Assembly: GCA_017456845.1 (NCBI GenBank)
Contig: JAFTIP010000021.1
Coordinates: 1-44,633 of the forward strand
DNA from: Ruminococcus sp.
GTDB lineage: Bacteria; Bacillota; Clostridia; Oscillospirales; Acutalibacteraceae
DNA length: 44,633 nucleotides
Direction of reading: 5' to 3'
The notes under the pieces were generated by a model. It had not been told where the DNA came from, did not search any database, and worked only from the letters and a program-made list of their open reading frames with translations. How positions within the stretch are numbered: the stretch's first letter is position 1; each line of letters starts with the position of its first letter. Both the position numbers and the translations under genes were made by a program. Positions 6,206 through 42,014 of the stretch are shown piece by piece.

Positions 6206-6311
6206 GTTAGCCGCAAGGTAACCCCTTGAGGGCGATTCCGCAGGTTAGCCACCTGCAGGGCATTTCGCCTTTGGATAGGTTACATTTAAAAAAGCCTTTC
6301 ATTAACGGCGG
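6206..6311 (+). repeat. Structured 3'-UTR repeat element, copy A (plus degenerate partial copy)
   Basis: The core at 6240-6311 (72 nt) has a hairpin GCAGG-TTAGCCA-CCTGC, then AGGGCATTTCGCC, a variable middle and TTCATTAACGGCGG at the end, whose GGCG can pair with CGCC. It matches a second 72-nt copy at 41943-42014. Just upstream at 6206-6240 lies a degenerate unit (GTTAGCC, then CAAGG-TAACC-CCTTG followed by AGGGCGATTCCG). It sits directly after the stop of the glycosyltransferase pseudogene and before its terminator, so it would be part of the mRNA 3' end. Confidence 0.65.
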
Positions 6312-6334
6312 GATTTTAAACACAATAAAACAAA

Positions 6335-6369
6335 AGGAGCTGACCGTAAAAGTCAGCTCCTGTTTTTTA
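6335..6369. terminator. Bidirectional terminator
   Basis: AGGAGCTGAC (6335-6344) pairs with GTCAGCTCCT (6352-6361), loop CGTAAAA, followed by GTTTTTTAT on the plus strand and TTTTGTTTTATT on the minus strand. It serves the plus-strand pseudogene and the converging minus-strand gene, whose stop codon overlaps the T-run. Confidence 0.85.
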
Positions 6370-6951
6370 TTGTTCTATATCATTTTCTATGGTCTGAGGA
6401 TTATTAATAGCGGCTTTCTCTGCCTTTTTCTGCTTAAAGAAGTTAAAAACGTTTCCTGCAATACCCAATAAGCTGAACAAATAGGCAAAGCCCAGGTCAC
6501 TAAGAAAAGGCCTCATAATGTCGGGTTCAGCAAGAAAATCAGGTGTTGCAACAAAAGCATCCATAAAAGTAATGCCTAAATCTTTAAACTCTGAAAAAAT
6601 AATAAACGCAACAGAAATATACTGGGCAACAAATATCATTACTACTGTAATAACTATAGCGGTAATCATACTGGCGACAGTGATTTTCTTAGCGGTTTTG
6701 GTAAACACCCCGTAACCGAAACGAGCCAATATAAACATAATCCAACCGGAAATACCCGATATAAAATTAAGCTGATAAAAGCCGAAATACACAGCTACAC
6801 CGCCTAAAGAAAACAGAAAAGCACCTAAGATACCTAAAAAATAGTTTTCTTTAGGTTTAATTTCAGGGCCGCCTGCACCGCCATTATAAACAGGCTGTGT
6901 CTGCGGAATATTTTCATAAGGTTGATTGCTAAAATTATTTTCGTTTTCCAT
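6367..6951 (-). CDS. Small membrane protein of unknown function
   Basis: 194 residues. A soluble, Asn/Gln/Pro-rich N-terminus of about 35 residues (a NQPYENIPQTQPVYNGG stretch) is followed by about four hydrophobic segments and a charged tail. I do not recognise the family. Low-complexity N-termini of this kind are common in Firmicutes membrane proteins of the DUF4190 or zinc-ribbon membrane sort, but no cysteines are present here. The ribosome site AGAGGAAG is well placed before the ATG at 6951. It has its own promoter and terminator and so appears monocistronic. Confidence 0.75.
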   Translation of the reverse strand: MENENNFSNQPYENIPQTQPVYNGGAGGPEIKPKENYFLGILGAFLFSLGGVAVYFGFYQLNFISGISGWIMFILARFGYGVFTKTAKKITVASMITAIVITVVMIFVAQYISVAFIIFSEFKDLGITFMDAFVATPDFLAEPDIMRPFLSDLGFAYLFSLLGIAGNVFNFFKQKKAEKAAINNPQTIENDIEQ

Positions 6952-6985
6952 GGTAAGCTTCCTCTCTGTTAATCACTTCGAATAA

Positions 6986-7014
6986 ATTTTACCATGTTAG
7001 ACATTTATTGTCAA
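6986..7014 (-). promoter_or_regulatory. Promoter of the small membrane protein gene
   Basis: TTGACA (reverse of 7009-7014), 17-bp spacer, TAAAAT (reverse of 6986-6991). It starts immediately after the ABC-F stop codon at 7019. Confidence 0.75.
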
Positions 7015-7018
7015 TCCC

Positions 7019-8908: not shown

Positions 8909-8939
8909 CGTTTTCACCTCTCATAAAAGTTACCGATAA

Positions 8940-9245: not shown

Positions 9246-9260
9246 CTGACAGTTAAATTA

Positions 9261-18107: not shown

Positions 18108-18509
18108 TCAAGGTGCAGGCACAAAAGGTAAAACTACAGGCTCGTCGTCTGTTTCGCCTATGGTGCCGGGGATTGTAAACTCGGGGTCAACAGGCTTTGT
18201 TGACTGAATAATATTTGCAATGTACTTCTGAATAAGTGTGGCGTCCTTTACGTTAATTTTGCCGTCAAAATTAAAGTCTGCAATATCTTCCTGAAAAGGA
18301 GCTAACGCCTCTAATTTTGCAATAAACTTCTGAATAAGCGAAGCATCTCTTATGTTAATTTTGCCGTCAAGATTAACGTCGCCGCGTTTGTGATCTACAA
18401 TAATCTCTGTATCGTTTGAAGCAAAAGCAGTTGATGTAAATATTACAGAAGCAAAAATCATAACCGCCAAAGCTGCAGAAATAATACAGAAAAGCTTTTT
18501 GTTTTTCAT
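18108..18509 (-). CDS. Secreted stand-alone type I dockerin protein
   Basis: 133 residues. Signal peptide 1-30 (cleavage after AFA). Residues about 43-101 are a complete type I dockerin: two calcium-binding repeats, GDVNLDGKINIRDASLIQKF and ADFNFDGKINVKDATLIQKY. The rest is a short acidic, Pro-rich tail; there is no catalytic or carbohydrate-binding domain. Dockerins bind cohesin modules, usually on scaffoldins, so this could cap a cohesin or dock something through its tail. No cohesin is recognisable in this window. GGAGAG precedes the ATG. Last gene of the 18-kb surface cluster. Confidence 0.9.
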   Translation of the reverse strand: MKNKKLFCIISAALAVMIFASVIFTSTAFASNDTEIIVDHKRGDVNLDGKINIRDASLIQKFIAKLEALAPFQEDIADFNFDGKINVKDATLIQKYIANIIQSTKPVDPEFTIPGTIGETDDEPVVLPFVPAP

Positions 18510-18740: not shown

Positions 18741-21700
18741 TTATGAATTCATATATTCAAGCAATTCTCTGTTATAAACATACATTGACTTGCTAAGGTC
18801 TAATTTTTCAGGAGCATTATTTGAGCTTTGAACTGATGCTCCGTAGCTGAAAACGTTGTAATACGTGGTTAATCCGCCGATTTTTACAACGTGATTCAGG
18901 TGATACGCCTGAGCCGGGGTACCGTCGATTACTATTTCATAGTAGCTGTTGTTCTTCTGAGGTATTACCTTTTTGCCGTTTACTGTAATATCAAGAGTTT
19001 CAACGTCTTTGGGATTTTCAAAATAGTAATAAAGCGTTATGGCAGTTGTACTTCGGTGTGACATAGACGCACCGTAATAACTTACCCCCTTCTGCTCTCC
19101 TTCTTCTATTCGGGCGTAGCCGCTAAAGTCAACCTCGGGCAAAACCTTATCCTCTTCAGCAATATACTGCGAATCATTGGCAAGGTCGTCTGTTTTATAG
19201 TCAAGTGCAATCTGCGCATAGGCACCGTAATTTAGAATTGACTTTATAAGGGGAATTTCTTTTTCATTGCCTTGGGGATTTGCAAGTATATACTCTGCAT
19301 ATTCCTTAACAGAATAACGGAACACATCGCTTGACATTGTGTTGGTTACAAACTGACAGTAGATGTCAGAGCCCATCTCCTTTGCCGGAATACCGCAACT
19401 GAAGTAGTAGAAGGTGCCGTCAAACTTTGCATCGCTTATGGGAACTATAACCTCATAGGTATCATCGGGATTATCTTTGCTTCCGTTAGGAACTGTAAAC
19501 ACCATTCTGGCTGTATGGTCCTTGGCGAATTCTTCGTCAAGCACCATATAGTAATTAAGCTCTATACTTCCCGAAAGGCCAATATCAAAGCCGTAGATAC
19601 CTGCAATTTTTCCCGGGTAAAGGCTTATACACTTCTTACAAACGTAATAGTTGTTGTAATCGTGAACAACTTCATCCTCTGTATTGGAATACTCAACAAC
19701 TTCGCCTGTGCAGGTTGTGTTTTTGTAAACGGTATTAAGGCCGTTATTATCAAAGCCCGGAAAATCCTCAGGTGTTAAGCCGTTATCAAGATTCTGATAC
19801 CAAACCTGAGTTGCGTCGGTTACCCCTTGATTAAGAAGATACGCAACATAGCCTGACTTGAATTCATCCAAGTACATAGCCGCGTTTTTTAAATAGTTAC
19901 GGGTTGAATCCGTAAACTCATAAACATCCCTCAGATAATAGGAGTTTGATGTTTGCCTGATATTATACGACACTTCGCCCCATGTTGCATTTTTGCCTGA
20001 CATAGCCCCTGCATTATAGCAGTTGTTAATCTGTAAATATGCAGAATTATCTCCGCCGCAAATACCGCCAATCCAGCCGTTATTGCCGCTTAATGCACCA
20101 AAGTTAGCACAGTTGTTAATAGCACTTCGGCTAAACCCTGAAATGCCGCCTAACATATCACATTCATCCGCACTGACAGACGCTTTATTGATACAGCGCT
20201 CTATACCTGTGTTATATTCGCGAATCTGTCCGCAAATACCGCCTATGCTGTATACAATATCGGTTTGCATCTTACCTGTAACTGTGCAGTTGCTGAAAAG
20301 CGCAGATGTACCGCTATTGCCTATATCTACAAATCCGCAGATACCGCCCATACGTAAATCTTCATTTCCTGATACATAAAAGTTTACGTTCAGATTTATG
20401 TTTTTGAAGGTTGCACCATTAGCCGCACCGAACAACCCGTAGTATTTATGGGTAGTGTACGTAGTGTTAAGATTATTGATAGTAAAGTTTTTACCGTCAA
20501 ATGCACCTTTAAATGGGTTGTTTTCGCTGCCTATGGGCTCACTCCAGACATATGGTGACATATCCACGTCATTCATCAGAATAAACTGAGCACAGATATA
20601 ATCTACATCTTCGGGGGTATCCTTATACTGTTCTTTATAACCGTTAGTTACATCAGAAATAAGCTTTATATGCTGGGGCACACTTACTCTGTAGGGGTCT
20701 TCAATTGTACCTGTGCCGGGAATATCGGTAATCGTAGGCACCACATCTGAGTTTCCTATATAAACGGGCTCATCGGGCATTACAAAGGTAAGAAAAGCGC
20801 CAGAGCCGCTTGCTTCTTCAAACGCAAAACCAACCATATTGCCGCTGGCAGTAGTAACGGTTATATTGTTTGAGTCCACCAAACCGGTGCAAGGAATTGA
20901 AACGGTGGTATTAATTTCAGAGGCTTTTACTCTTTCGGCGAACATCTCAAAAGCATTTTCATCATCAAAAACACTATCGTAATGAATGGGAAGTATACCT
21001 ACAACACCGTTTTCGTGGGCAATCTCAACCTTATCGCCAAGGCCCCAGAAATTAAGGTTACTGAAGGTGTGGTTTACGTTGATGTTATACGCGTTTTCAG
21101 AAAGCTCAGCAATAAACACCTTATCCTTAAGGCTGCTTTCTTCTACCTCGGTAATAAGCTTTCGGTTATCGCTTTCTTTAATATATTTTTCCTCTGATAC
21201 ATCTGTGTTGCAAGCATAATAATTTGTAAAATCATCGGCAGATAATTTAGCATTGGAGCTTACAATCATCTTTTTGACGCCATTTGAGTTTGATACCAGA
21301 ATATTATTGATATATATGCTATCCATAATACTCCAGATAACGTAGCCTGAATCAGTGCAATTTGTAAAGGTAACATTATCAGCAAAACAGTTGAATATCC
21401 TCAGGTTTGTACACTGCGAAACAAAACCGCCTGCATAACGTGCATTATCAAACACACAGTCTTTGATGGTTACGTTATAAATATCGGTATTACCCCATAC
21501 AGTGGATGCAACCACCGCCGCACGCGAACCTGAAAGCTGAATGTTTTTGAAAGTAACATCGTGAATTTCAGCACTTCCGCAATAGCCGAACACTGCAGGG
21601 TATGCGTAGTCGTGACTAACCTGCTGGCTTGATGCCTTGGGAACAAGATTGCTAATGGTATATCCGTTGCCGTCAAAATGAGCGTTAAAGGGGTAGTATC

Positions 21701-24428: not shown

Positions 24429-24446
24429 AATATGCCTCCTAATTAT

Positions 24447-24476
24447 GGGAAGAGGTATTTTCGGCTACCTCTTCCC
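24447..24476 (-). other. Intergenic hairpin between the two giant surface-protein genes
   Basis: A perfect 11-bp stem (GGGAAGAGGTA with TACCTCTTCCC, 8-nt loop) lies in the 61-nt gap, just upstream of the AGGAGG of the 1895-residue gene. No U-run follows it on the minus strand, so it looks like an mRNA stability or processing element, not a terminator. Confidence 0.65.
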
Positions 24477-24489
24477 AACTATATCTGAA

Positions 24490-27400
24490 TCAAGCCTTCT
24501 TCTTTCTGAGCATAAGTATTACACCCAGAGACACAGCTATAAGAACCAATGAAATAACAATTATAAACCTGAAGTTTGAGCCTGTTGTAAGGGATTCGCC
24601 GATGTTACCCTCTGTTGTGTTATCGCTGACAGCTTCGGTTTTATCAAAAGCTTGCGTTGATTTAGGCTCTGTAGAATTATTTTGCGTTACTGCCTCTGTT
24701 ACCTCTTCTGTATCAGAAGCTACAGGCGTGGTATCATCAGGCGGAACAACTGCTCCGTCATAAACCGTAAGAACAGCAATCTCTTCGTCCTTAACAGCGG
24801 TAGAAACAGAAAGTCCGCTTCGAGCGCTGTAAACAGCCGAGCCGTCCTCAACTTTAATAACACAGTCCTTAACCGAAAGAGTAACAATGCTTGCGTACTC
24901 ACCGCTTACCTCCCCGTCAGGCTCAAATACGAGAGTATTGCCGTCTAAAACATTCAAAGCCTTGAAATTAACGTCTGTAATTCCCTTAATACCTCTTACT
25001 GCAACCTTAAGGCTTATACCCTCACAAGCTTCTGCAATAATATTTTCGGGATAAATGATATGAAGCTGTACGTCGTTTAAAGACTCAATTTTTTCTTTAT
25101 TATCAAGAACCAAGAAAACCGTTTTATCAGAGCATGCCTTATTAAGCTCAAGGTCGCTGATTAGAGGAACTGACGTATTAAGGATAAGTGTGCGGTTTTG
25201 GTTATAAATACAGCTTCCGCTTACAGGCTTGATTTCTTCGCCGAGAATCACCTCTGAAGCCGCTGCTTCCTTGGGAATCATAAGCTCAGCTTTAAACAGT
25301 GCTGTGTTTTCATTTTCAAGCTCTGCGAACTTAAGAACTGCTTCAACGGCTGTCTGACTGCCGTCGCTGTAATAAATAATCTGACGAGAATCAATAGCAG
25401 CGCCCTCAAAGGAGTTTGCGTTAAGCTTTTCATCAAAGATAACCTTTGCAACTACATCGAGCTTATCCTTTTGTGCCGAAGCTAATAAAATCTCTGCTTT
25501 CTTTGCAACACCCTTATCAGATGTGTCGCACACAAGCTCAGGGGGATTTTCCAAAAGCTGAGAAACAGGGATACCGTCAACATCTGTAACAAAAGTTGCA
25601 GGACTTTCAAACACGTTTCTTAAGGTGAAGGTGGTTATGTCGCCGCTCTTAAGAGAGAACGGTGTGTGACAAACAAAGCTTAAAACATTGTTCTCAACAG
25701 AATCCAATGTAAGATATACAGCCACAGAATTTTCGTCAACCGTCATATCTGCAACAGCATAAACTTGGTCTGTAACAACTGCAATAATATCCTCGCCAAA
25801 GCTTACATCCAAGCCCAGCTTATATCCGTCATCGCCGTTTTCAATAAGCTTAAGCTCTGATTTTTCTGCCTGAAGCTTGGAAACGCTTACAGAGTTTCTG
25901 TGAAGAATTTCGTTGCCGTAAACCTCTTTACCGTCTGCAGACTTAACAGGAGATGACTTATCAGCTGTGAGGCTATGCGATGCAATAAAGGTTTTGCTGT
26001 ACTGACAGCTGTTAAACGAAATCTCGTCTGCCTCTGATACATACTTATAAACAGCGGATGTATACTGATTTTCGCCGCTACCCTTAATTTCAGCACCTGC
26101 AAAACTCAGCTTATACACCGTATTGCGTGTGTAGTCATATTCCTTGGCGATTTCGTTTACGTCAAGACTTGTATTCTTAAGAGTTTCTGCATCAACCGCA
26201 CCGCTTAAAAGAACCTGTGCACAAAGAACGTTATCACGCACTTTAAAGCTTCCGCCCTCGAAGTAAGGTGTTGCACTTATAATGTAAGCACTTGAGTTAA
26301 ACGTAAGGTTTCTGCAATTTTCAAGCTGAGGATTAACCTCAATACCGTCATAAGCCGAACGTATTACCGCATTTTCATCTGTGTAGGAAATTGTATTATC
26401 CTTTACCGAGCACTTTACAGTACAGCCCTTATCAAGAACAATGCTTTCGTCAGCCTTGAAGCACAGCGTTTTGCCGTCTTCGCTTAAGCTGTAGCCATAC
26501 AGAGTATATTCTTTAACTTCTGCAGCCTTTGAGGCGTTATCTTTAAACTCTGCATTAATGGTAACATATGCCCGTGAGCTGTTATTAAGGTCAGAAATAT
26601 CTACCTTATCTTCAAAATCGGCATAAAGAGCAAAGGTACTTAAAATGCCGTTTTCGGTAATTTCTGAAAGCACCGCAGTCTGAGACTCTGTAACCTTAAG
26701 CTTACTATAGTAAATATCAAGCTGAGTTTTATCGGTAATAACCTGAGAAATATTATTATCAAGGTAGTCGCCCTGAGCTGTTACAAGAACATAATTATCT
26801 TTGCCGAGAACGATACCTTCGCTGAAGCTGAAAAGCTTAGATGTTTCGTTTTTCTCAAGCTCAAGAGAAGACGCACGGTAAAGTGCAACCCTGGGATCCT
26901 GAGTTATTTTGCAGAAATTAAACTCAACAATTTCAGTTTCGTTATTAGAGTTAACTGTAGTATAAAGAAGCTTTGTGCCTTCAAGTCTGGTTACGTCGGG
27001 AGCTGTCATAAACTTAACCTTTACGCTCTTCTGTACGCTGCCGTCGGGCATTTCTTTGTCGTCTGCAACAATTACAGAAAGTATACCTGACTCTTTAAGC
27101 ACGTAGGAAACTTTATCATAATCAGGAATAGCTGTGTTTACCGCTGTTCCCTTTTTGGTAACAACCGCATTTTCGGGAATGTGGCTATCCTTTAATACGT
27201 ACTTTAGTATTGTTCCCTGCTTACTGCTGAGCTCTGATGATAACACAAGCACATTGCCGTCTTTTATCTCTTCGGCAGTAAATAAAACCGTATTGCCTGT
27301 AGCCTTATATTCGCCGTCGATACATTCGTATTCATCAAACTCAACCGTAATATCCTTAAACTCAACGCCCTCTTTAAGCTTAACAGCACTGCTGAAGGTA

Positions 27401-30400
27401 AGATTAAACTGAGCTTTACGGCTTCTGCCGTTTACAAGCGGAGCATCCAAAATCTCGTCGGCTCTGCCGATAGATGCATAAGGAGAAACATCTGCATCGG
27501 TTGTATCAATAGTAAACCTTGCATAATCAAGAGAAAGTGTTTCGCCTTCGTCAAGAATAGCTTCGATTTCTACAGTATATTTATCAAGCTTCAGTTTTTC
27601 TGACTGATATAAGAGTATACCGTAATCAGTAAGGGGAGAAACGGTGGAAACCTTTTCTCTTATGACTTCCTTGCCTGAGCTGTTGGTAACTACAAGCATA
27701 AATTCGCCGCCGTTAACCAGACAGTTGCCGAAAATACTTAAATCGTCACCGTAAAAATCAAAGGTTAATTTACTCTTATCATCGTTTGCAGTAAGTATGT
27801 CTGCCCCTTTTGCGTACATATGTATCTTATCGCTTAAGCCAAAGCCTGAGAAATTAACGTTGCTATCAAAGTTAAGGACATCCTTATCTGTGACGTAAAT
27901 ATAAAATACTCTGTAGATAGTAGTACCCTTAATGTTAAGCAAGAGCTTAGCTTTGCCGTCTTTAGGCATATCTACCGCCTTAACTTTAATTTTTCCGTCT
28001 GAGGAGGAATTATCAATACTTAAGCAGTCCGTGCCTACTTCGTATGCTCTGAGGTGGATATCGCCAAAATGCTGGGAAACAACCCTGCTGTCAAGCTCAA
28101 GCACATCGCCCAAAGAAAGTGCAACCGAACCGTAAACACCGGTTTGAGCAGGCATCTGATTAAGAACTGTAGAAATTGTAGTACCGTCGAGGGAAATTTC
28201 GGGTATCTGATAATTTGTTACAATACCTGTGGAATCGTTTGAGGTGTCAAACTGGGGCTCATCATAAGAAATATCGAAGCTGTATTTAAGTTCTCCGTTT
28301 TTTATATACTCATCAACATCATAAGTGTCGAAGTATAAATCAGATGAACCTGCATCCAAAGGATACTGAGTAAAGCTGAAAAGGGTCTTTGAACTTGTGT
28401 TTCCGTCTTCGTCCTCAGTATATGCCTTGAAATAAACCTTTGCAGGCTTTGTCATATCAGACGTACCTGTGTTTGCAATATCAGTTCTGAAGGTCATTTT
28501 GCCATTCGCGTCAATTTCAACGTCAATAGCGTTAAACTCAAGCTCGGCACAGTTATTGATGGTATGGTAAGTAACTTCCTTATCATCAGCTTCATTACTG
28601 TTTGTATTTAAAAGATAGCTGTCATAAGAATCGAACAGAACGTTATCGTTTTCGTCAGTAATCATAATACAAAGCAATGAGTTATTACTCTGTATTTCAT
28701 TAATATCAAACTCAAAGTACTGTTCAATAGTATCGCCTGCCAGCAAACCGTTCTTACCGGAGTCTTCATTGTTAAATCCGGAAAGCACCCTTGTGGCTAC
28801 GGGATTTGAAATATATTTGTCCTCATCACAAATATAAAGCGTAACGTTAAGAACATCGAGTATTGTGTCGCCTGTATTTTCGATATCGAAATTAAGGCTT
28901 ACGGTTTCGCCCGGTGCAAAAATCTTGTTAAGCATATCAAAACCGCTTACATCAATGGCTGTAACGCGTTCCTTAAAGCTTATCATATAGATATCAGAAC
29001 GGGCTTCTTCGCTTTCAAAATCAAGCATGGGTGCAACCATATACTCAATCTCATTGCCCTGACTGTCTACATATACACCGTCAAGATTATTCACAGCATC
29101 AACGGGAGCATTGTCGTTCTTAAGATTTTCAAGATTAACGCCGTATTCGTAAGTAAAGGGGGCGTAATTAGACTTGAAAGCAACGGAAACGTTGCCTCTT
29201 GCGTCAACAAAAGCAGACATATTATCAATTGTCATACCATAGGTTTTTTCACGATTGTTGAGTGCTTCTTCATCAAAAATACTGCTGTAAGTAAGCTGAC
29301 GGGCATGGTTCCACACATGATTTTCACTGTCATAATCTATGATGTTAAGAGTATCTGTATACGCCGAGGTTCCGGTATTTTCTATAAATATAATACTGAT
29401 TTCCCCTGCTTCGGAAACTGCAACTATATAGTCGTTGAAATAACCGTTATAAAGTCGTTTAACGTTTTGCTCTATGGTTTTGCCGTCATTTTTAGCTTTA
29501 AGAGCTTGTGAAAGCTTGCTGTAACTTACACAGTTGATGCCTATGTTGGTCTGGTAGAAAAGACAAGGCTGAGCGTCGGCACTTTCAGAATTTTCCTCAT
29601 AAAGCACAGCGTTTTCCATCTGCAGGTTGCGGATTATGGGATTTTCGTAAATCTCGTCTGTAGCAGGGTTATAGTATTGAGACGTATACTCATCAGGCTC
29701 TAAAACATCCTCAAGATTTTCGTCATAATCAATTAAGCTGTCAACAATAAGCGGGTCGCTGAATTTCAAGGAGCCATCTTCATTGATTACACCTTCGCGA
29801 TAGTGGATTTCTTTAAGAACGCCCTTGTGAGTATCCTTAATAACATCAGGAAGCTCAACTGCATACGAAAGGCACACAGTACCGTCCTTTGCCGCTGAGG
29901 CTGCAATTTCTGTAATTCTAATACCTGTAAGGATATCCGCATCAAATCGGGTATCAAAGCTTTCTTTCACAGAAATTGTCTGAGGCTCTGAGTATTTACC
30001 GTTGCTGCTTACAGCATAACGGATAACACCCTGACCTGTAAACATAGAGTTCATCAGGTTTTCTATATCGGCAACGGTTGATGAGTCTTTATCAAAGCTT
30101 TCCCAATCAAGCTTGAAGTCAGCGTTATACTGTGCTTCGTCTTCTGCAAAGAACACTACACTGTTGTTGCTTGTTACTGCTGTTTCTGGCAGACTTTCCT
30201 GACGGGAGTTGGCATCAGTTGCCTTGATAAGCTCAGTACTGAAGGTTCCGTCGTCATTATAAGAAGCAACCCTCACACAAGTACGCTGTAATATTTCACT
30301 TAAAGCAGAGGACTCTGAAACGTCAATTTCCCTGCCGTCAGAAAGTATCAGCTTTGCAGTATTATTTTCGTTAAGAATTACACTTTTAACTGTGCTGTCA

Positions 30401-33400
30401 GAAGCTGTAAACTCTACGCAAAGCTTCGAATTATTATCAACGTATGCATTAAAATCGGTAATATAAATGTCGTTGCTTACCAAAACATTGCCATAAGAAG
30501 GAACGTTGCAGTATAAAGCATTATGGCACTCCCCTGTTTCAGCGTTTGTAATTAACTCTGTAAAAAACGCCAGAGTTTTATTTTTATAATTTACAACCTG
30601 AGTTTTGGAGTTCTTTAAAATATCGCCTTCAATAAGAGTTTTGGTCTTTTCGGCTGAAAACTCGCCTGTATCAAAATAGTTTACCTCTTCATTGCTTCTT
30701 ACGCCCGATTCGCCAACCACAACAAGAGGAAGATTTTCGCTGTTATTGGCAAGCATTCGGTTTGCACCGCTTACGTCCCATGTTTTGCTGTAATAAACTG
30801 TACCGAGAGTAATGGTTGCCTGGGTCTGAGAGCCGATATTGCTGTACTTAATAAGCATATATGCAGGTTCGAGATTAAGTGAGAAAAATGCAACCGTAAG
30901 CTTAACGTACATACTCAGCCTTGCACTGGCGGCGTCAAAGGAAGCAGGTGTTTTGACTTTTTTGTAGTTATCCTCCCTGTAAAGCTTGGCACTGTCAAGA
31001 ATAACCTTACCCCCTGCATTCTCAATAACCACCTTAATCTGTGTGGGGGTAGCTTTGTCAGGGTCGTCAAAATCATCCATCTTCCACTCAAAAACAGGAA
31101 TATGAGTAGATGTTTGCTCTGATTTAAGACTGAGAGTCTGAGTCTGTTGCACAGGGGTATCGCTGTTACCTGTATAAACCGTAACCCTAATGTCACCTCC
31201 GTCAGGCTTTGTTACACCTACAAGCTGAAAAGCCGTGCCTTCGCCCTCAATAACAACCACATCGCCCTCAGTTTCCGAGATAACGTAAGTGTTATTGTAG
31301 AAGTATTCCTTCATGCTTTCAGCGAGGTAATCATCAGAAGAAGTATTGGCTACATGGCAGGTTTTCCAATTGACTGAGTATTTATCTGTAATCTTAGTAT
31401 TTTTATCATCAACGTACACATCAAGGTCAAACTCCGCCAGCTTTGGCGCAATCTTTTGCCTTCCGAAGGTAACAGCAGCACTAAACTCAGCCGAACCGCC
31501 TACCTCAAAAGCTAAAACGCCGCTTAAGCCAATGCCTGCACCTATAGAAACTGCCAGATTAGGAGCAACGGTAAAGCCGTTAAAGCTTAATGCATATTTT
31601 ACGTTTCCGTCCAAATCAACGTAATCTTTAACTGCCGCAAAGCCTGAGCCTATGGACAAACCGCCCTTTATGGAAAAGGATACATAAACAAGGTTAGCCG
31701 CGGCAGGAATGGGAATACCCTTACTGTAGGAGAAGTTGCCCGAACCCGAAATGCTAAAAGAGCTGAAATCCCATTCATTTCTTATTGGGTTATAGCAAAG
31801 GTCAACCTTGGTATCCACAAATACGCCGAATGTAAAAGATTTGTATTCAGCGTTGGTTTTTCCTGCAGTATCTTTAATGCTTTGCATAACGCCTTTATTA
31901 GAAACAGGGTCTACCACAGGAGTATCCATATTCAGAATATCCGTTGCGTTAAGCTCGCTGCCGCTAAGGTCATCCATCTCAATTTCAGGGAGCTCTTCTT
32001 TAGGCTTTGGAACCAGATTATTGCTGTTGCCGCCGATTCTGATGCCAACGGTCATCTGATTATCCCAGAACTTAACGTATACTCCGTTTCCGGCAAAATT
32101 AAGTGCTCTTTTTGCGGCATTAGGCTTGTTGTTTAAAGTAAAGAGCTTGCAGAGAAATGTACCAAAACCTGTCATATCAAGATTTACGGGAGAAGTGTTG
32201 GCATTGATAACGTGGTCAGTATAGGTGTAAAAATCCTCCTGCTGCTCATAATACATACCGGATTGTGACTCCTCAGGAGAAGTTGCATCAAAGTCAATAA
32301 CCTTTGTACAAACGTACTGGGTATCCTTAGGATTAAGTACAGAAATAATTTCCTGATATGAATCATCGCCGTTATTGTAGTTACCCACCTCAATAGTTAC
32401 ACCCTGACCGCCTGAAATTACTGCAGGATAGGTTTTATCATTAGTATTCTGATAATTATAATAAGTGGGAATATACATTCTGTATTCATAGCCGTTTTGA
32501 GAATAGCTTACAAGCTCAACCTCAGGAAGATAGTTTGCGTCAAAAACTCCGTCCTCTATTTCAAGAGATAATTTGCTTGCCTGAGAAAAATTGGCACCGC
32601 CGTGGTACGTAAATGAAAACAGCTTCTGATGATTACGGCTGTCAATATCTCCCGAATAAACGGTAACGGGATAATCCTTAACCGCCATGTCCTCGGTATA
32701 AGAGCCTACGTAAATGTCGGAAATTACAAAGTTCATACAATAATAAGCCAAATCAGGGGTCTGGCTTCTGTCTGTAAACAATGCCTCAAAAGGTACGTAA
32801 TCATCAATGTAATTAGCTATGTAAACAGTTTCAAGCTTACCGTCGTTCATTTTGCCCACGTAGGTTGAGGCAAGACTGAGCTCAGGCTCTACGTAGTCAG
32901 ACTCAAGATAAGAAAGCCTGAAATTAACCGCAGTTGAAATTTGTGAGCACACAAAACGGTTTATAGTGGTTTCTTTTGTAATGGTTTTGTACTCGGCAGA
33001 ATACAGGTTGCTGGTGGCCTTAACGTCATCACCTGCCTTCTTAGGATCAACCACTACATTGTCAAACTCAACTATTTCGTAAAAAATCACCTTTTTGTCA
33101 AGATAAACTTCAGGCTTATAAGAAACAAGCTCGTTATTCTGATAGAACTTCACAACTTCGCCCAAGCTCTCAAGAATACTTGACTTCTGCGCTTCCTCAG
33201 GTAAATTTTCCAAGCCTTCATATACGTGGGGAATATCTCTGTAAGAAACCTCTACCCCCTGCTGAATGGCATACTGGCAATCAATAGTAAGCTTATCTGC
33301 AAATGCAGAATTAATACATCCCCCGCTTACGAGAAGCTCGTTATGAGCTTTAATCTGCTCGTCAGACATAAGGTAAGTGTTCTTTAAAGTGTCAGTATCA

Positions 33401-35400
33401 TTGTTCATATTTGTTTCAAGAGTAACTGTGAAGCTATTGCCTGAAGCTTGGCTGAAATTATGAACATTACCCTTGGAATCGGTAAGATACAAAACCGTAG
33501 GCACAGGCATACTTGCCCCTGAAGTAAGAGGCTGAAAGCTGATATCCAGCGTACTTCCTGCGTAAAAACCTGTTGCCGTTTCGTCTACAGCGTCCTTAAA
33601 TACACCGCCGTTTTTACTTTGGGTATCTACCTTAACAGTCCATTTGTAATTATTCTTTGTAAAAGTAAAACCGCTCTGGTCGCTGAGCACTGTATAGTCA
33701 GCGTTATCTGCAAATACGCTGAAAGGAATCACAGTTCTTAAAAGGCGTGTTTCAGTAATTTTAAAGTGGTTTGAATCCTGACCTTTTACGTTATAAACAA
33801 AGTAGAAGGGCCTCATAGCACTGCCCTCACTGCCTGTGGTTTTAGGATAACGGTTGCCGTTATTATCACTAAGGCTGAGGGTTATCGGGGTTTTTGTAGA
33901 GTCAAGATTATACTGAAGATAATTTTTAAGAATATAGATATCGTTATCTGTCATCCATTTCTTGCTGTTGGTATTGGAAGTGTTGATGTCGTCACCTTCA
34001 GGGCAAGAACCCAGGTTATCGCCTGAATATGTATGACCCTGGCTGTCAAGGTAACCTAAAGCTGTATTCGGATTTCCCGAAAGTGCACCAAGTCCTTCTT
34101 TATCACGGCTGTAACAGGAATAAATGATTGCATCATAAAGATTAAAGTTAAATGTGCTGTCGGTAGCAACAAGCAAATCTTCGTCATTGTCTGAAAATTC
34201 TTCATCATGCTTCCAACTATCGCCCGAAGAATAAAGCTGCGAAAATTCTTTAGGTGTAATAGAGAGGGTCTCTGACCAGTAATTCGTGTTTTCTGCAGAC
34301 TGAAGCAAAGCTTCTTTGCCCGTATCTGCAAGAATGGTAACAGCCTTACCGTTAGCGGCACCTACAGCCGCCTTAAGCATATCAGCCCTGTTGAGAGTAT
34401 CGTTTTGATTAAGAACGGAATTTTCGTTACTTGCAAGAACGGTACTTTCGTCTATTGCCATATCAGCTTTTGCATTATCAGCGTTAATAACCTTGCCCGT
34501 GCTTTCATCAAGCTTATTTGTAATTCCAAGGCGGATAGAATTGCTGTCTCCTGCTACGCCTCCACGGATATTTTCCATAGTAAGATTAAAGTACTTGGGG
34601 TCGGCAAACTTTTCGTTGGAATGAATAAAAGGAACTGTTACTTTTTGCTCGGTTACACCTACACCAAAAACAATTTCTTCCTCAAAAGCTTCATAATCAA
34701 CGCCTGCCTTAGCTGTAGCGTCGGCTGATTTAATAAGAACAGTACAATAATCGGTATCGTTCTCTGTACGCTTAACGGTAACTGTTATACCGCCGTCACT
34801 TATGTCGGCAATCGCTTTATCAGCAACCATTGTAAAAACACTTTCTACGTAAGGCTCATCGTCAAACACCTTAATCATTGCAGTGCTTGCGTCAGAAATA
34901 AGACCGGACGTTGCATCTGTAAGAGTCATCATCAAAAGTTGGTTGCCGTTACGCTTATTATCGTTTGGAATTTTAACCTTAGCTGTTGCAGTAACCTGCT
35001 GAGGTGCAAAATCCACAGTACCCATTAAGTCGGGATACATCTCATTATCGCCAGAAACGGTAATGAGGTTGTATGTAAGGGTAGCTGACCTGCTGTTTCC
35101 GCCTATGCGGTAAACAACTATTCCAAGATAAATGTCCTCAGGATTTTCGGCGTCAGGTCCACCTTCGGTAATTTCATAAGAATTATATTCAATAACGTAA
35201 AGACCCTCGGGATAGTGTTCTTCCCAGTCATCGTTGGAATAATACCCTGCAGCATTATTTTTAGCAGATTCAATACTCATATCTGCAGAAACAATATCAG
35301 CACTGTCTTCGGTAGCGGCGGCTACGTTAAGTCCGAAGCAACCGGTAACTGTAAGCAGTAATGCCAAAAACATGGATACAAACTTTTTCATTCTGCTCAT
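24490..35400 (-). CDS. Giant cell-surface protein with Calx-beta and repeated Ig-like domains, C-terminally anchored
   Basis: 3636 residues, about a quarter of the window. Signal peptide 1 to about 29. Residues about 60-290 resemble two Calx-beta domains (VAGDSNS; TAKAGVDYEAFEEEIVFGVG). About 1212-1312 is an unusual Gly/Ala/Val-rich, nearly uncharged stretch (LAVSIGAGIGLSGVLAFEVGG). About 2150-2260 has a CARDB-like segment (FAPGETVSLNFDIENTGDT), with a related one near 2300-2400. About 2640-3540 carries several Ig-like or SbsA-like repeats. The end has a Thr/Ser/Glu linker, LTTGSN, one hydrophobic helix and RKKKA, like a sortase signal without LPxTG. No enzyme motifs seen. Likely an adhesin or matrix protein. 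AGGAGG 8 nt upstream lies inside the last codons of the 276-residue gene. Confidence 0.85.
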   Translation of the reverse strand: MSRMKKFVSMFLALLLTVTGCFGLNVAAATEDSADIVSADMSIESAKNNAAGYYSNDDWEEHYPEGLYVIEYNSYEITEGGPDAENPEDIYLGIVVYRIGGNSRSATLTYNLITVSGDNEMYPDLMGTVDFAPQQVTATAKVKIPNDNKRNGNQLLMMTLTDATSGLISDASTAMIKVFDDEPYVESVFTMVADKAIADISDGGITVTVKRTENDTDYCTVLIKSADATAKAGVDYEAFEEEIVFGVGVTEQKVTVPFIHSNEKFADPKYFNLTMENIRGGVAGDSNSIRLGITNKLDESTGKVINADNAKADMAIDESTVLASNENSVLNQNDTLNRADMLKAAVGAANGKAVTILADTGKEALLQSAENTNYWSETLSITPKEFSQLYSSGDSWKHDEEFSDNDEDLLVATDSTFNFNLYDAIIYSCYSRDKEGLGALSGNPNTALGYLDSQGHTYSGDNLGSCPEGDDINTSNTNSKKWMTDNDIYILKNYLQYNLDSTKTPITLSLSDNNGNRYPKTTGSEGSAMRPFYFVYNVKGQDSNHFKITETRLLRTVIPFSVFADNADYTVLSDQSGFTFTKNNYKWTVKVDTQSKNGGVFKDAVDETATGFYAGSTLDISFQPLTSGASMPVPTVLYLTDSKGNVHNFSQASGNSFTVTLETNMNNDTDTLKNTYLMSDEQIKAHNELLVSGGCINSAFADKLTIDCQYAIQQGVEVSYRDIPHVYEGLENLPEEAQKSSILESLGEVVKFYQNNELVSYKPEVYLDKKVIFYEIVEFDNVVVDPKKAGDDVKATSNLYSAEYKTITKETTINRFVCSQISTAVNFRLSYLESDYVEPELSLASTYVGKMNDGKLETVYIANYIDDYVPFEALFTDRSQTPDLAYYCMNFVISDIYVGSYTEDMAVKDYPVTVYSGDIDSRNHQKLFSFTYHGGANFSQASKLSLEIEDGVFDANYLPEVELVSYSQNGYEYRMYIPTYYNYQNTNDKTYPAVISGGQGVTIEVGNYNNGDDSYQEIISVLNPKDTQYVCTKVIDFDATSPEESQSGMYYEQQEDFYTYTDHVINANTSPVNLDMTGFGTFLCKLFTLNNKPNAAKRALNFAGNGVYVKFWDNQMTVGIRIGGNSNNLVPKPKEELPEIEMDDLSGSELNATDILNMDTPVVDPVSNKGVMQSIKDTAGKTNAEYKSFTFGVFVDTKVDLCYNPIRNEWDFSSFSISGSGNFSYSKGIPIPAAANLVYVSFSIKGGLSIGSGFAAVKDYVDLDGNVKYALSFNGFTVAPNLAVSIGAGIGLSGVLAFEVGGSAEFSAAVTFGRQKIAPKLAEFDLDVYVDDKNTKITDKYSVNWKTCHVANTSSDDYLAESMKEYFYNNTYVISETEGDVVVIEGEGTAFQLVGVTKPDGGDIRVTVYTGNSDTPVQQTQTLSLKSEQTSTHIPVFEWKMDDFDDPDKATPTQIKVVIENAGGKVILDSAKLYREDNYKKVKTPASFDAASARLSMYVKLTVAFFSLNLEPAYMLIKYSNIGSQTQATITLGTVYYSKTWDVSGANRMLANNSENLPLVVVGESGVRSNEEVNYFDTGEFSAEKTKTLIEGDILKNSKTQVVNYKNKTLAFFTELITNAETGECHNALYCNVPSYGNVLVSNDIYITDFNAYVDNNSKLCVEFTASDSTVKSVILNENNTAKLILSDGREIDVSESSALSEILQRTCVRVASYNDDGTFSTELIKATDANSRQESLPETAVTSNNSVVFFAEDEAQYNADFKLDWESFDKDSSTVADIENLMNSMFTGQGVIRYAVSSNGKYSEPQTISVKESFDTRFDADILTGIRITEIAASAAKDGTVCLSYAVELPDVIKDTHKGVLKEIHYREGVINEDGSLKFSDPLIVDSLIDYDENLEDVLEPDEYTSQYYNPATDEIYENPIIRNLQMENAVLYEENSESADAQPCLFYQTNIGINCVSYSKLSQALKAKNDGKTIEQNVKRLYNGYFNDYIVAVSEAGEISIIFIENTGTSAYTDTLNIIDYDSENHVWNHARQLTYSSIFDEEALNNREKTYGMTIDNMSAFVDARGNVSVAFKSNYAPFTYEYGVNLENLKNDNAPVDAVNNLDGVYVDSQGNEIEYMVAPMLDFESEEARSDIYMISFKERVTAIDVSGFDMLNKIFAPGETVSLNFDIENTGDTILDVLNVTLYICDEDKYISNPVATRVLSGFNNEDSGKNGLLAGDTIEQYFEFDINEIQSNNSLLCIMITDENDNVLFDSYDSYLLNTNSNEADDKEVTYHTINNCAELEFNAIDVEIDANGKMTFRTDIANTGTSDMTKPAKVYFKAYTEDEDGNTSSKTLFSFTQYPLDAGSSDLYFDTYDVDEYIKNGELKYSFDISYDEPQFDTSNDSTGIVTNYQIPEISLDGTTISTVLNQMPAQTGVYGSVALSLGDVLELDSRVVSQHFGDIHLRAYEVGTDCLSIDNSSSDGKIKVKAVDMPKDGKAKLLLNIKGTTIYRVFYIYVTDKDVLNFDSNVNFSGFGLSDKIHMYAKGADILTANDDKSKLTFDFYGDDLSIFGNCLVNGGEFMLVVTNSSGKEVIREKVSTVSPLTDYGILLYQSEKLKLDKYTVEIEAILDEGETLSLDYARFTIDTTDADVSPYASIGRADEILDAPLVNGRSRKAQFNLTFSSAVKLKEGVEFKDITVEFDEYECIDGEYKATGNTVLFTAEEIKDGNVLVLSSELSSKQGTILKYVLKDSHIPENAVVTKKGTAVNTAIPDYDKVSYVLKESGILSVIVADDKEMPDGSVQKSVKVKFMTAPDVTRLEGTKLLYTTVNSNNETEIVEFNFCKITQDPRVALYRASSLELEKNETSKLFSFSEGIVLGKDNYVLVTAQGDYLDNNISQVITDKTQLDIYYSKLKVTESQTAVLSEITENGILSTFALYADFEDKVDISDLNNSSRAYVTINAEFKDNASKAAEVKEYTLYGYSLSEDGKTLCFKADESIVLDKGCTVKCSVKDNTISYTDENAVIRSAYDGIEVNPQLENCRNLTFNSSAYIISATPYFEGGSFKVRDNVLCAQVLLSGAVDAETLKNTSLDVNEIAKEYDYTRNTVYKLSFAGAEIKGSGENQYTSAVYKYVSEADEISFNSCQYSKTFIASHSLTADKSSPVKSADGKEVYGNEILHRNSVSVSKLQAEKSELKLIENGDDGYKLGLDVSFGEDIIAVVTDQVYAVADMTVDENSVAVYLTLDSVENNVLSFVCHTPFSLKSGDITTFTLRNVFESPATFVTDVDGIPVSQLLENPPELVCDTSDKGVAKKAEILLASAQKDKLDVVAKVIFDEKLNANSFEGAAIDSRQIIYYSDGSQTAVEAVLKFAELENENTALFKAELMIPKEAAASEVILGEEIKPVSGSCIYNQNRTLILNTSVPLISDLELNKACSDKTVFLVLDNKEKIESLNDVQLHIIYPENIIAEACEGISLKVAVRGIKGITDVNFKALNVLDGNTLVFEPDGEVSGEYASIVTLSVKDCVIKVEDGSAVYSARSGLSVSTAVKDEEIAVLTVYDGAVVPPDDTTPVASDTEEVTEAVTQNNSTEPKSTQAFDKTEAVSDNTTEGNIGESLTTGSNFRFIIVISLVLIAVSLGVILMLRKKKA

Positions 35401-36372: not shown

Positions 36373-36403
36373 CACTTTGCAATAAATAAACCGTTTTAGG
36401 GAT

Positions 36404-36439
36404 AAAAAGTAAAATCCCCGTAACATACGTTACGAGGAT
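36404..36439 (-). repeat. Second copy of the tRNA-operon terminator
   Basis: 36 nt nearly identical to 36551-36587: one substitution and one extra A. It has the same stem (CCGTAAC/GTTACG plus ATCC/GGAT) and the same TTTTACTTTTT tail on the minus strand. It may work as a back-up terminator upstream of the surface-cluster promoter. Confidence 0.7.
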
Positions 36440-36483: not shown

Positions 36484-36551
36484 ATTCACTATTCACTATT
36501 ACTTATTACCTTCCAAAAACCCGAGTATTCAAGAGAAAAGTGAAGAGTGAA
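36484..36551. repeat. Heptamer repeats forming an inverted repeat
   Basis: ATTCACT-ATTCACT-ATTACTT (36484-36504) is a 7-nt periodic run. TTCACTATTCACT (36485-36497) is an inverted match (12 of 13) to AGTGAAGAGTGAA (36539-36551), 41 nt away. It lies between the two terminator copies. Confidence 0.6.
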
Positions 36552-36559
36552 AAAAGTAA

Positions 36560-36590
36560 AAATCCCCGTAACACACGTTACGAGGATTTT
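36560..36590 (-). terminator. Terminator of the tRNA-Thr/tRNA-Tyr operon
   Basis: A long stem (ATCCCCGTAAC at 36562-36572 with GTTACGAGGAT at 36577-36587, one mismatch, extended by A-T pairs) directly follows the CCA of tRNA-Tyr; TTTTTACTTTTTT follows on the minus strand. Confidence 0.85.
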
Positions 36591-38012: not shown

Positions 38013-38013
38013 A

Positions 38014-40132: not shown

Positions 40133-40141
40133 GGTGTAAGT

Positions 40142-40683: not shown

Positions 40684-40690
40684 ATATTAA

Positions 40691-40786
40691 ACTGCCACCG
40701 GGTAGTGAATGTTTTTATTAAAACTAAAGCATTCGTTTGTACATCGTTAGGTCTTTGAAGATGTGCACACGAATGCTTGTTTTTTT
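40691..40786 (+). promoter_or_regulatory. Candidate transcription-attenuating riboswitch in the pnuC leader
   Basis: The leader begins at the predicted start point with hairpin ACTGCC-ACCG-GGTAGT (40691-40706). Next, GTGAATG (from 40705) can pair with CATTCGT (40730-40736), enclosing GTTTT/AAAAC. That excludes a terminator: AAGCATTCG (40727-40735) with CGAATGCTT (40770-40778), plus the inner TGTACATC/GATGTGCA, followed by GTTTTTTT. The pnuC ribosome site comes right after. Two mutually exclusive folds before a vitamin transporter indicate ligand control. NAD+-II (pnuC motif) riboswitches are known before pnuC, but I could not confirm a match to their consensus. Confidence 0.65.
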
Positions 40787-40795
40787 GGAGGAATT

Positions 40796-41485
40796 ATGAA
40801 AAGAATCAAAAATTATTTTTCTAAATTCGAAATATCGCTCTGGATTACCTCGGTAACTCTTATTACCGCGGCCTATTTTGTTTTCGACAGGTCAAGCCCC
40901 TTAACCCTTATTGCCTCAATTTTGGGCGTTACTGCGATTTTACTCAACGCCAAAGGCAATCCTATAGGACAAGGGCTTATGGTAATCTTCAGCATAATTT
41001 ACGGCATAATTTCCTATGGCTTTTCATATTACGGTGAGATGATTACATACATGGGAATGAGTATGCCCATGGCGATAATTGCACTCATAGCCTGGCTTAA
41101 GAATCCTTTTAAAGGAAACCACGCTGAGGTTAAGGTAAACAGAATCAGCAAAAAAGAAACCGCATTTATGCTTATTCTTTCGGCTTTTGTAACACTTGTA
41201 TTTTATTTTATACTTAAACATTTTAACACGTCTAATATTATTCCTTCAACTCTTTCGGTAACTACAAGCTTTCTTGCGGTTTACCTTACCTTTCGCCGAA
41301 GCCCGTATTTCTCACTGCTTTATGCATTTAACGACGTTGTGCTGATTGTACTGTGGATTTTAGCTTCGCTGACAAACCTTAGCTACATCTCTGTTGTAGT
41401 ATGTTTTCTGATGTTTCTTATAAACGATATGTATGCTTTCATAAGCTGGCGAAAAATGGAAATCAGGCAACGTACCATTGACTAA
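40796..41485 (+). CDS. pnuC: PnuC-family nicotinamide riboside transporter
   Basis: 229 residues from the chosen start, with about seven to eight hydrophobic segments. The family core is seen at FSIIYGIISYGFSYYGEMITY and later at NDVVLIVLWI and NDMYAFISWRK. PnuC proteins move an unphosphorylated vitamin (nicotinamide riboside, or thiamine/riboflavin in PnuT/PnuX relatives) by facilitated diffusion. The adjacent niaR and nad genes favour nicotinamide riboside. ATG at 40796 follows GGAGG; the in-frame GTG at 40763 lies inside the terminator hairpin. Confidence 0.9.
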   Translation: MKRIKNYFSKFEISLWITSVTLITAAYFVFDRSSPLTLIASILGVTAILLNAKGNPIGQGLMVIFSIIYGIISYGFSYYGEMITYMGMSMPMAIIALIAWLKNPFKGNHAEVKVNRISKKETAFMLILSAFVTLVFYFILKHFNTSNIIPSTLSVTTSFLAVYLTFRRSPYFSLLYAFNDVVLIVLWILASLTNLSYISVVVCFLMFLINDMYAFISWRKMEIRQRTID

Positions 41486-41537
41486 AGAAGAAATATTTGG
41501 TATAATAAACAAAACAGTATGAAAGGAATTGTGTAAA

Positions 41538-41942
41538 ATGGCAAGTAACAGTTTAAGAATAAAGTGTAACTGCGGTCATGTTCAGGATGCTTTTGCAGGC
41601 GGTGTTTGCCCTCAGTGCAAACAGCCCATAAACTTCCCTCAGGGCGGTATGATTCACCTTTACCGCAAAGGCTCACCTTTAGGTGTTGCAGGCGGTTTTG
41701 GTATTTATATCAACAACGTTCCCCTTGGCCACATCGGCAACAAGCAAACAGTTAACATTCCCGTAAGCTACGGTACATACACACTCCACGTTGCAGTTGG
41801 TATGAACCGCAAGTGTAAGGATTTAACCTTTAATATTACTCCTGAAAACCCAATCGGCTATGCAAAGGTTTATATGAAGCCCGGCTTCTGGACTAACTCC
41901 TTTGTTATTGAGCCTTCTACAAAGGAAGAAATGCCCCTTTGA
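41538..41942 (+). CDS. Zinc-ribbon protein with DUF2846/PEGA-like beta domain
   Basis: 134 residues. The N-terminus has a zinc ribbon with four cysteines in two pairs (KCNCGH and VCPQCKQ). The rest is a beta domain: a GIYINNVPLGHIGNKQTVNI segment followed by YGTYTLHVAVG, a pattern like small proteins that display a short 'interface' sheet (DUF2846 or PEGA type). Function unknown. AAAGGA lies 10 nt before the ATG at 41538. It starts about 50 nt after pnuC and may be cotranscribed with it. A structured repeat begins at its stop codon. Confidence 0.75.
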   Translation: MASNSLRIKCNCGHVQDAFAGGVCPQCKQPINFPQGGMIHLYRKGSPLGVAGGFGIYINNVPLGHIGNKQTVNIPVSYGTYTLHVAVGMNRKCKDLTFNITPENPIGYAKVYMKPGFWTNSFVIEPSTKEEMPL

Positions 41943-42014
41943 GCCCGTTAGCCACGGGCAGGGCAATTCCGCCTTTTTGTAGAAACCTTTTATCAATAGA
42001 TTCATCAACGGCGG
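41943..42014 (+). repeat. Structured 3'-UTR repeat element, copy B
   Basis: 72 nt, matching the copy at 6240-6311. Hairpin GCCCG-TTAGCCA-CGGGC (41943-41959), then AGGGCAATTCCGCC, a variable middle, and TTCATCAACGGCGG; CCGCC (41969-41973) can pair with GGCGG (42010-42014). The first stem differs in sequence from copy A but still pairs, while the loop is identical. It begins directly after a stop codon and precedes a terminator, as copy A does. Confidence 0.7.

Follow-up and report, generated by a model that had tools for sequence, protein, structure and literature searches.

Probable mobile palindromic repeats of a REP/BOX-like kind at gene ends in a genus of gut and rumen bacteria

Results

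Two copies of a two-hairpin element

The window analysed here is a 44,633-nt stretch from Ruminococcus sp. (assembly GCA_017456845.1, contig JAFTIP010000021.1, positions 1–44,633 of the forward strand); its genome, hereafter G000, is a 1.79-Mb draft that is 93% complete. Two 72-nt copies of the element lie on the plus strand, copy A at 6240–6311 and copy B at 41943–42014, as the original prediction had placed them, and its description of their stems, loop, AGGGC and CGCC...GGCGG closing pair is accurate. Copy A comprises hairpin H1 (6240–6256; stem GCAGG/CCTGC, loop TTAGCCA), supported by sequence, fold and covariance model, a conserved AGGGC tail (6257–6261) and hairpin H2 (6266–6311; CGCC ... 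AACGGCGG); copy B comprises H1 (41943–41959; stem GCCCG/CGGGC, loop TTAGCCA), the same AGGGC tail (41960–41964) and H2 (41969–42014; CCGCC ... AACGGCGG). H2 is supported by sequence, fold and covariation in both. The covariance model of the whole element matches copy A with an E-value of 9.3e-20 and copy B with 5.4e-17, and the single-strand folds of the two copies are only moderately more stable than those of shuffled sequences (z = −2.5 and −2.3).

Both copies had been described as beginning right after a plus-strand gene. This is true of copy B, which directly abuts a TGA stop (41940–41942, plus strand), but not of copy A, which begins 37 nt past a TAA stop (6200–6202). The sequence between that stop and copy A (6203–6239, plus strand), previously called a degenerate partial copy, is indeed related, but reads as further H1-type hairpin units in a short array rather than as one copy: CTGTTAGCCG and then CAAGG-TAACC-CCTTG-AGGGCGATTCC. 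The CAAGG..CCTTGAGGGC variant is seen again in G000; two examples lie beside C58:48776 and at C37:33415. Each copy is followed on the plus strand by a host feature, a terminator-like hairpin plus T-run (6337–6368 and 42040–42085), as predicted; both were recognized by eye, and the hairpin after copy B also appears in the fold.

A large repeat family concentrated in one genus

A covariance model built from 11 copies found 102 matches at E ≤ 1 in the 1.79 Mb of G000 (best 1.9e-20), a density of ~1 copy per 18 kb; 98 matches at E ≤ 0.01 in 455 kb of G000 sequence; and 92 matches in 766 kb of the relative G069. A strict sequence pattern gave 12 matches in G000 vs. none for a reversed-pattern control, which together with the 102 model matches indicates repetition far beyond chance. 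The original prediction, in which the element was “present twice”, thus understated a family of about 100 copies; it had called for this genome-wide search and had taken a yield of two copies only as grounds to abandon it, and the search found many.

Each copy consists of H1 (variable stem, loop TTAGCCA), (A)GGGC, a spacer and H2 (CGCC...AACGGCGG), and H1 units often stand in tandem ahead of H2, forming arrays. Each module of an array is a ~26-nt hairpin unit whose loop is conserved and whose stem varies; in the parts analysed, 11 distinct perfect 4-bp H1 stems occur in G000 and 9 in G069. The sequence 5′ of H1 may be any stop codon, a T-run or something else, with no constant tag.

Of 161 genomes examined within the genus, 87 carry the element, and the number of matches per genome runs from none to ~100; searches outside the genus, which were less sensitive than those inside it, found almost nothing. 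The family is concentrated in one genus of gut and rumen bacteria (Oscillospiraceae). One carrier, Ruminococcaceae bacterium P7, is culturable. Two exact-pattern scans of IMG/VR gave no match in viral sequences, nor did blastn with copy A as query in 50,697 phage records. In plasmids, blastn with copy A gave only a 24-base match (E = 0.7), shared by 48 records (46 from Acinetobacter), which we take as chance.

Consistent with the earlier statement that no named family matches, the Rfam comparison proposed with it returned only two tRNAs at gathering score across the window; at E ≤ 10 around copy A, two matches fell far below their cut-offs, neither of them convincing. Word searches of the open literature found no earlier description of the element.

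Stems vary and remain complementary

The original prediction proposed covariation in stem 1 from the two copies, a claim that further copies without compensatory changes would have undermined; genome-wide, the arms covary strongly. When units are aligned by their loop and GGGC tail alone, Watson-Crick pairs occupy stem positions 2–4 in 86, 80 and 69% of 70 units in G000 (shuffle means 47, 43 and 29%) and in 83, 85 and 73% of 104 units in G069 (shuffle means 48, 37 and 30%). Model-fitted alignments concur (covariation scores 0.287 and 0.290 vs. 0.126 and 0.091 when shuffled). Given Watson-Crick pairing at three stem positions, the fourth is Watson-Crick in 262 cases, wobble in 6 and mismatched in 25, so that wobble is not in excess in the H1 stem (6/31 non-Watson-Crick cells).

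Covariation extends to H2 and, in G000, to a loop-to-flank pair between loop base 4 and the last base of GGGC, the final base of the tail (G-C 72, A-T 6, G-T 1, A-C 2; Fisher p = 5.9e-7); in G069 the same pair is G-C in 78 units and A-C in 1, with nothing to show covariation. The G000 pattern may reflect a pseudoknot, whose connecting loop would be short (1–2 nt), an alternative hairpin or a stop-codon-driven change, which are not distinguishable. Conserved loops, sense orientation and covariation are features that also fit a functional RNA, and to that extent they run counter to a mobile element.

Many copies lie at gene ends

Among the 102 G000 matches, 80 have a same-strand upstream neighbour, whereas 20, according to simple ORF calls, lie between two genes of the opposite strand. 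Abutment was counted by taking, without array tracing, the longest frame of at least 100 codons that ends within 66 positions of the loop: the frame ends at −5, −4, −3 or +4 of the loop, the four offsets touching H1, in 31/58 G000 matches and 14/31 G069 matches. An alternative count (37/61 arrays) took the frame nearest to offset −4 and so leans to the peak; abutment was recounted with the longest frame for this reason, and 31/58 is the figure to use.

The placement goes with H2: among G000 genes, 47% of 34 with H2 have a hairpin immediately behind the stop (offset 0) vs. 9% of 301 without, and the corresponding figures are 26% of 27 vs. 7% of 538 in G069 and 35% of 46 vs. 6% of 467 at named loci; genes without H2 show no stop-abutment peak. 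All three stop codons (TAA, TAG and TGA) abut H1, and another class of copies directly follows terminator T-runs. In G069, 39 of 81 arrays were assigned to neither of these two positions, partly owing to tandem arrays. One junction (L211), at 1 of 35 tRNAs scanned, is the end of a tRNA-Lys gene.

Filled and empty orthologous sites

The site of copy B is filled in G000 and G069 and empty in the relatives G057 and G052; two other sites (C13:1841 and C28:11101) are filled in G000 and empty in G069; and an array (C23:25820) has two H1 units in one ortholog and three in the other. We infer gain rather than loss at the empty sites. The nearest genome compared is ~80% identical, and at only this identity no target-site duplication, terminal inverted repeat or clean junction is clear by eye at filled/empty pairs. 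Comparison of these pairs by eye likewise did not reveal a left stem arm copied from the insertion site, so a target-derived stem was rejected, and G020 (~72% identical) was set aside as an empty-site source as too distant.

These sites bear on the possibility that the element is a cis-acting 3′-UTR RNA element kept by selection, in which H1 at the stop and H2 would shield the 3′ ends of mRNAs or serve as a protein-binding site during translation termination. The same-strand upstream gene at 80/102 matches, the contact of H1 with the stop codon and the covariation of both hairpins would all fit, as would loci of other species, which keep the order stop-hairpin-H2 despite a different H1 loop. 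However, the element is missing at some orthologous genes, 20 of the 102 matches are flanked on both sides by genes of the opposite strand, copy number varies across the genus from no match to ~100 per genome, and wobble pairs are not in excess (6/31); we regard this explanation as unlikely.

No consistent enzymatic partner

Y1 transposase models found no match in G000, G018 or G020, and the RAYT model none in G000; Y1 matches are present in the close relatives G069, G075, G052 and G057. Among the 17 genomes with 18 or more element matches, Y1 is present in 9 (69/161 overall) and NF047646 (E ≤ 0.001) in 11 (87/161 overall); only 3/161 genomes pass the curated NF047646 cut-off. The reverse transcriptase family PF00078 (RVT_1) is present in 5 of the 17 (56/161 overall), in none of G069, G075, G052 and G057, and in G000 as one weak match (43 bits). 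Neither Y1/RAYT nor reverse transcriptase is a consistent partner of the element.

It is rather improbable, on these counts, that the element is of REP type and moved by a Y1 (HUH) transposase, RAYT or IS200/IS605 TnpA, that is lost or unassembled in G000. The Y1 matches in close relatives and NF047646 in 87/161 genomes speak for this, as do hairpin substrates and a gene-end location that fit REPs, among which GTAG REPs often supply a TAG stop (PMC3733652); the absence of Y1 matches from G000, G018 and G020 and the weak association of Y1 and NF047646 with high-match genomes speak against it, as do the variable stem and the TAA, TAG, TGA or T-run that precedes H1 in place of a GTAG/CGTC tag.

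RNA-mediated insertion, in which element RNA would become attached, by joining or template switching, to the 3′ ends of cellular RNAs (products of cleavage at stop codons, ends at terminators or tRNA CCA ends) and then be copied into DNA, would account for junctions at all three stop codons, at the ends of T-runs and at the single tRNA-Lys gene end, and for the mostly sense orientation. Given that PF00078 occurs in so few high-match genomes and only weakly in G000, and that for about one-fifth of copies the ORF and flank calls give no position at an RNA 3′ end, we consider it highly improbable.

Discussion

Our results suggest that the element probably represents a new family of palindromic repeats that resemble REP and BOX, are mobile but non-autonomous, and are under constraint to form DNA hairpins. 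Of the three options raised in the original prediction, the small mobile repeat is best supported, because there are ~100 dispersed copies, arrays, and both occupied and empty orthologous sites; a protein-binding 3′-UTR element is weaker, and a small RNA has no support. Hairpins in single-stranded DNA would be the substrate of an enzyme supplied in trans, which would recognise the loop and flank; recognition of this kind could let stems drift yet stay complementary. Gene ends would be preferred for insertion or retention since no essential sequence is interrupted there, and any effects on host mRNA, as an exonuclease barrier or through the loop providing a stop codon, would be secondary. There is a slim chance that the insertion machinery targets gene 3′ ends as such, in the transcript sense (any stop, terminator ends, possibly tRNA ends), through a process that depends on RNA 3′ ends or on the termination of translation and not on a DNA motif.

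Several known systems share part of this description. Small dispersed repeats of cyanobacteria are tiny, presumably mobile hairpin repeats, and the element resembles them in size and hairpin form, by description rather than by sequence. Group IIC introns insert after terminators, as does one class of copies directly after T-runs; this likeness leaves the stop-codon sites unexplained, and the element, at 72 nt, differs in having no Rfam intron match in the window and no consistent reverse transcriptase (RVT_1 in 5/17 high-match genomes), which speaks against a group II intron derivative. In REPs the stem is conserved. The element shares with them many extragenic palindromic copies but has neither the GTAG/CGTC tag nor the conserved stem, its loop being fixed and its stem variable, and it adds a second hairpin in a genome without a RAYT-model match. 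REPs and REPINs, described together with RAYT transposases (PMC3733652, PMC3116915, PMC2817692 and PMC8266576), are likewise high-copy extragenic palindromes that often touch stop codons; a GTAG or CGTC tag is present in most REPs, and GTAG REPs often give flanking ORFs a TAG stop (PMC3733652). BOX of Streptococcus pneumoniae (PMC3049150) is a modular interspersed repeat with a variable number of modules, predicted RNA hairpins and copies at gene 3′ ends, and supplies the stop codon in 36/58 CDS overlaps. The element shows such variable repetition in its H1 arrays, including the two vs. three units at one ortholog; BOX has another host, and was compared by description only, not by sequence.

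The work describes a large repeat family in rumen and gut bacteria in which the usual REP logic is reversed, the loop being fixed and the stem free. It turns the frequent contact of small repeats, REP and BOX among them, with stop codons into a problem that can be tested, and it cautions that covarying 3′-UTR hairpins in such genomes need not be regulatory RNAs. The family also offers a natural experiment on how palindromes drift yet remain complementary, and one orthologous pair carries a compensatory change: the copy at C60:32133 in G000 has the stem GTCG/CGAC and its G069 ortholog GACG/CGTC, both following a Gly-Arg end with the stop within the loop.

Element anatomy and copy number

The two 72-nt copies at 6240-6311 and 41943-42014 (both on the plus strand) are, on our best account, probably instances of a REP/BOX-like non-autonomous palindromic repeat. 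Their coordinates in the original prediction are borne out by the sequence; the degenerate partial copy placed ahead of the first is indeed repeat sequence, not as a single copy but as an array of the element's first hairpin (H1). In the genome from which the window comes (G000; 1,787,063 bases in 62 contigs), a strict pattern returned 12 matches and its reversed control none, and R1, a covariance model built from an 11-copy alignment, returned 102 matches at E ≤ 1 and, in the fetched 455 kb, 98 at E ≤ 0.01. Inspection of all 102 with their flanks revealed an H1 with a stem of ~3-6 bp and the loop TTAGCCA, mostly G-C-closed, followed by (A/T)GGGC, a short spacer and a second hairpin (H2) with a conserved outer stem, CGCC/GGCG(G), and a variable long loop. 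Tandem H1 units of ~26 nt each are frequent ahead of H2, and H1 units are also chained with loops 3-5 nt apart (4 cases in the G000 parts, 19 in the related genome G069).

Stem covariation

In a loop-anchored test, for which the exact loop and GGGC-type tail alone served as anchors, stem positions 2-4 were Watson-Crick in 86, 80 and 69% of 70 G000 units (shuffle means 47, 43 and 29%) and in 83, 85 and 73% of 104 G069 units (48, 37 and 30%). Model-fitted alignments, which are biased toward the model's structure, gave 91.9% paired cells vs. 79.3% shuffled for 98 G000 copies and 94.9% vs. 79.5% for 91 distinct G069 copies; with partners slid by 1-3 columns as a control, 28-67% of cells pair. Helix 2 likewise covaries in the model-fitted alignment, one G069 pair being G-C in 62, A-U in 22 and G-U in 4 copies. 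Compensatory changes are visible at individual sites: GTCG/CGAC in G000 is GACG/CGTC at the homologous site of G069, the same Gly-Arg protein end preceding both, and GCGGG/CCCGC in G000 is ACGGG/CCCGT in the related genome G020, with matching flanks.

When the three other pairs were intact (G000 and G069 together), the fourth was Watson-Crick in 262 cases, wobble in 6 and mismatched in 25, a few of these 31 non-Watson-Crick cases probably being false units. By arithmetic, without a control run, a single change to a G-C pair yields a wobble one time in six, so 6 of 31 is the expectation from mutation alone; because wobble shows no excess, the stem constraint reads, on small numbers, as DNA complementarity rather than an RNA helix.

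Loop base 4 covaries with the last base of GGGC in G000 (G-C 72, A-T 6, G-T 1, A-C 2; p = 5.9e-7), the six A-T cases being partly dependent, as two are adjacent array units on contig C22; in G069 the pair is nearly invariant (78 G-C, 1 A-C). At the A-T cases C4:31857, C40:27537 and C46:14038 (contig:position in G000) and in both A-C cases the loop supplies the gene's stop codon, with TTAA replacing TTAG, so codon preference may lie behind the first change in this pair.

Position relative to genes

By simple ORF calls in G000, weak matches included, the upstream neighbor lies on the same strand for 80 of 102 matches; both neighbors are opposite for 20, and 2 are divergent. Among the 20, the ORF calls misassigned C28:11101, which sits after the T-run of an apparent 5S rRNA gene (identified by eye), and probably C7:5801 as well. 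The others are apparently antisense between tandem genes, with no stop-codon contact, and any account must accommodate such copies.

Under a neutral rule (longest frame of 100 codons or more with its end at -60 to +5 of the loop), 58 of 98 G000 matches with a recognizable loop have such a frame end; 31 of the 58 fall at -5, -4, -3 and +4 (7, 11, 6 and 7), four of 66 positions, where the stop touches the H1 stem or is the TAG/TAA within the loop. In G069, where 83 of 86 matches have a recognizable loop, the same offsets account for 14 of 31. Tracing the 96 G000 arrays to their first unit places 37 of 61 at the stop, by a choice rule that favors the peak. All three stop codons occur beside the element. 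In the same tracing, 11 of 96 G000 and 9 of 81 G069 arrays were assigned to positions after a T-run; 27 and 39, respectively, were assigned to neither stop nor T-run, many being later array members.

A hairpin lies exactly after the stop in 47% of 34 G000 genes with a downstream H2-like sequence vs. 9% of 301 without (one of 49 stretches left out), in 26% of 27 vs. 7% of 538 in G069, and in 35% of 46 vs. 6% of 467 across 97 named loci; for genes without H2, hairpin frequency is 3-11% across offsets 0-30. This exact abutment may reflect targeting or selection. An element acting in cis as a 3'-UTR RNA is an unlikely alternative; the lower abutment count under the neutral rule and the weaker test of restriction to one genus make it slightly more likely, and a REP/BOX-like repeat slightly less so.

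At the named locus L211, which belongs to another assembly, a tRNA-Lys gene is followed without a gap, right from its CCA end, by an element that has H2 but a different H1 (1 of 35 tRNAs). One G000 copy, C60:3836 (locus L114), directly adjoins TTTCACGTGAAAC, which resembles the consensus of a ParB parS site.

Occupied and empty orthologous sites

The stop codon abutted by the copy at 41943-42014 is occupied in G000 and G069; in two other related genomes (G057 and G052) the site is empty, with plain sequence and then a terminator after the stop codon, and in a third (G075) it carries other repeats. For 29 of 80 G000 clusters, both flanks were located within the 766 kb fetched from G069; 23 of these clusters were displayed and six with distant flanks left out. 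The element is present in G000 and absent at the G069 boundary at C13:1841 (at a stop codon), C28:11101 and C37:19251 (after T-runs), and C57:30279, C58:1190 and C60:53323; another hairpin-array family sometimes occupies such G069 boundaries. At other displayed clusters both genomes carry the element, and their arrays may match or differ: the shared array at C23:25820 counts two units in G000 but three in G069. At ~80% identity, insertion junctions and duplications are unreadable at these sites.

The G069 intergenic regions L336-L375 contain a second hairpin-array family with units like CATCATTTGCGTAAGCAAACATCAT and ATATCGCATTTGCGTAAGCAAATATATCGC, apparently variable stems and constant spacers; in places these arrays begin immediately past a stop codon. 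The downstream flanks of C13:1841 and C58:1190 hold a third repeat, GTAGGGGCGATTATTAATCGCCC..., which is MITE-like and inverted and is shared by several intergenic regions that also feature the element.

Distribution and candidate mobilizing enzymes

Of 161 genomes from the genus, 87 have R1 matches at E ≤ 0.001 (up to 30 candidates scored per genome); 15 genomes drawn from the order's other families yielded one weak match. A strict H2 pattern found 102 stretches in the GTDB species collection, by title two proteobacterial and the others Clostridia-type or unnamed, mostly from rumen 'uncultured Ruminococcus/Clostridiales' assemblies; Ruminococcaceae bacterium P7 (Oscillospiraceae) was among the carriers. 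Five were dropped as chance: the two proteobacterial and three Oscillospiraceae stretches with coding-like flanks. In even samples the pattern occurred in 1 of 398 family genomes (G000 itself) and 2 of 394 order genomes (G000 and one other), weak evidence of absence because it recovers 2 of the ~100 G000 copies. The named loci retain the order of stop hairpin and H2 with differing H1 loops: counting chance matches and some that share an array, 62 of 120 H2 matches lie no more than 160 nt downstream of a frame end, and the hairpin begins 0-3 nt past the stop in 31 of these, at 0 in 22.

According to PMC3049150, 36 of the 58 genes that BOX overlaps take their stop codon from it, and PMC3733652 describes GTAG REPs as frequently providing a TAG stop. 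This precedent for stop-codon contact places the element, with its own abutment, within a known kind of repeat. No partner enzyme emerged: neither the Y1 transposase nor the RAYT model matched G000, absences that are soft because the genomes are drafts; reverse transcriptase gave one weak G000 match. Among the 17 genomes with at least 18 R1 matches, Y1 was found in 9 (vs. 69 of 161 overall), NF047646 in 11 (vs. 87) and RVT_1 in 5 (vs. 56).

Elsewhere in the window, hairpin stretches at 36398-36439 and 36546-36587 (86% mutual identity), on the downstream side of two minus-strand tRNA genes, are possibly repeated terminators. A 133-aa minus-strand frame (18108-18509) carries two 83%-identical repeats, dockerin-like by eye, and adjoins two very large minus-strand frames of 1895 and 3636 aa (18741-35400).
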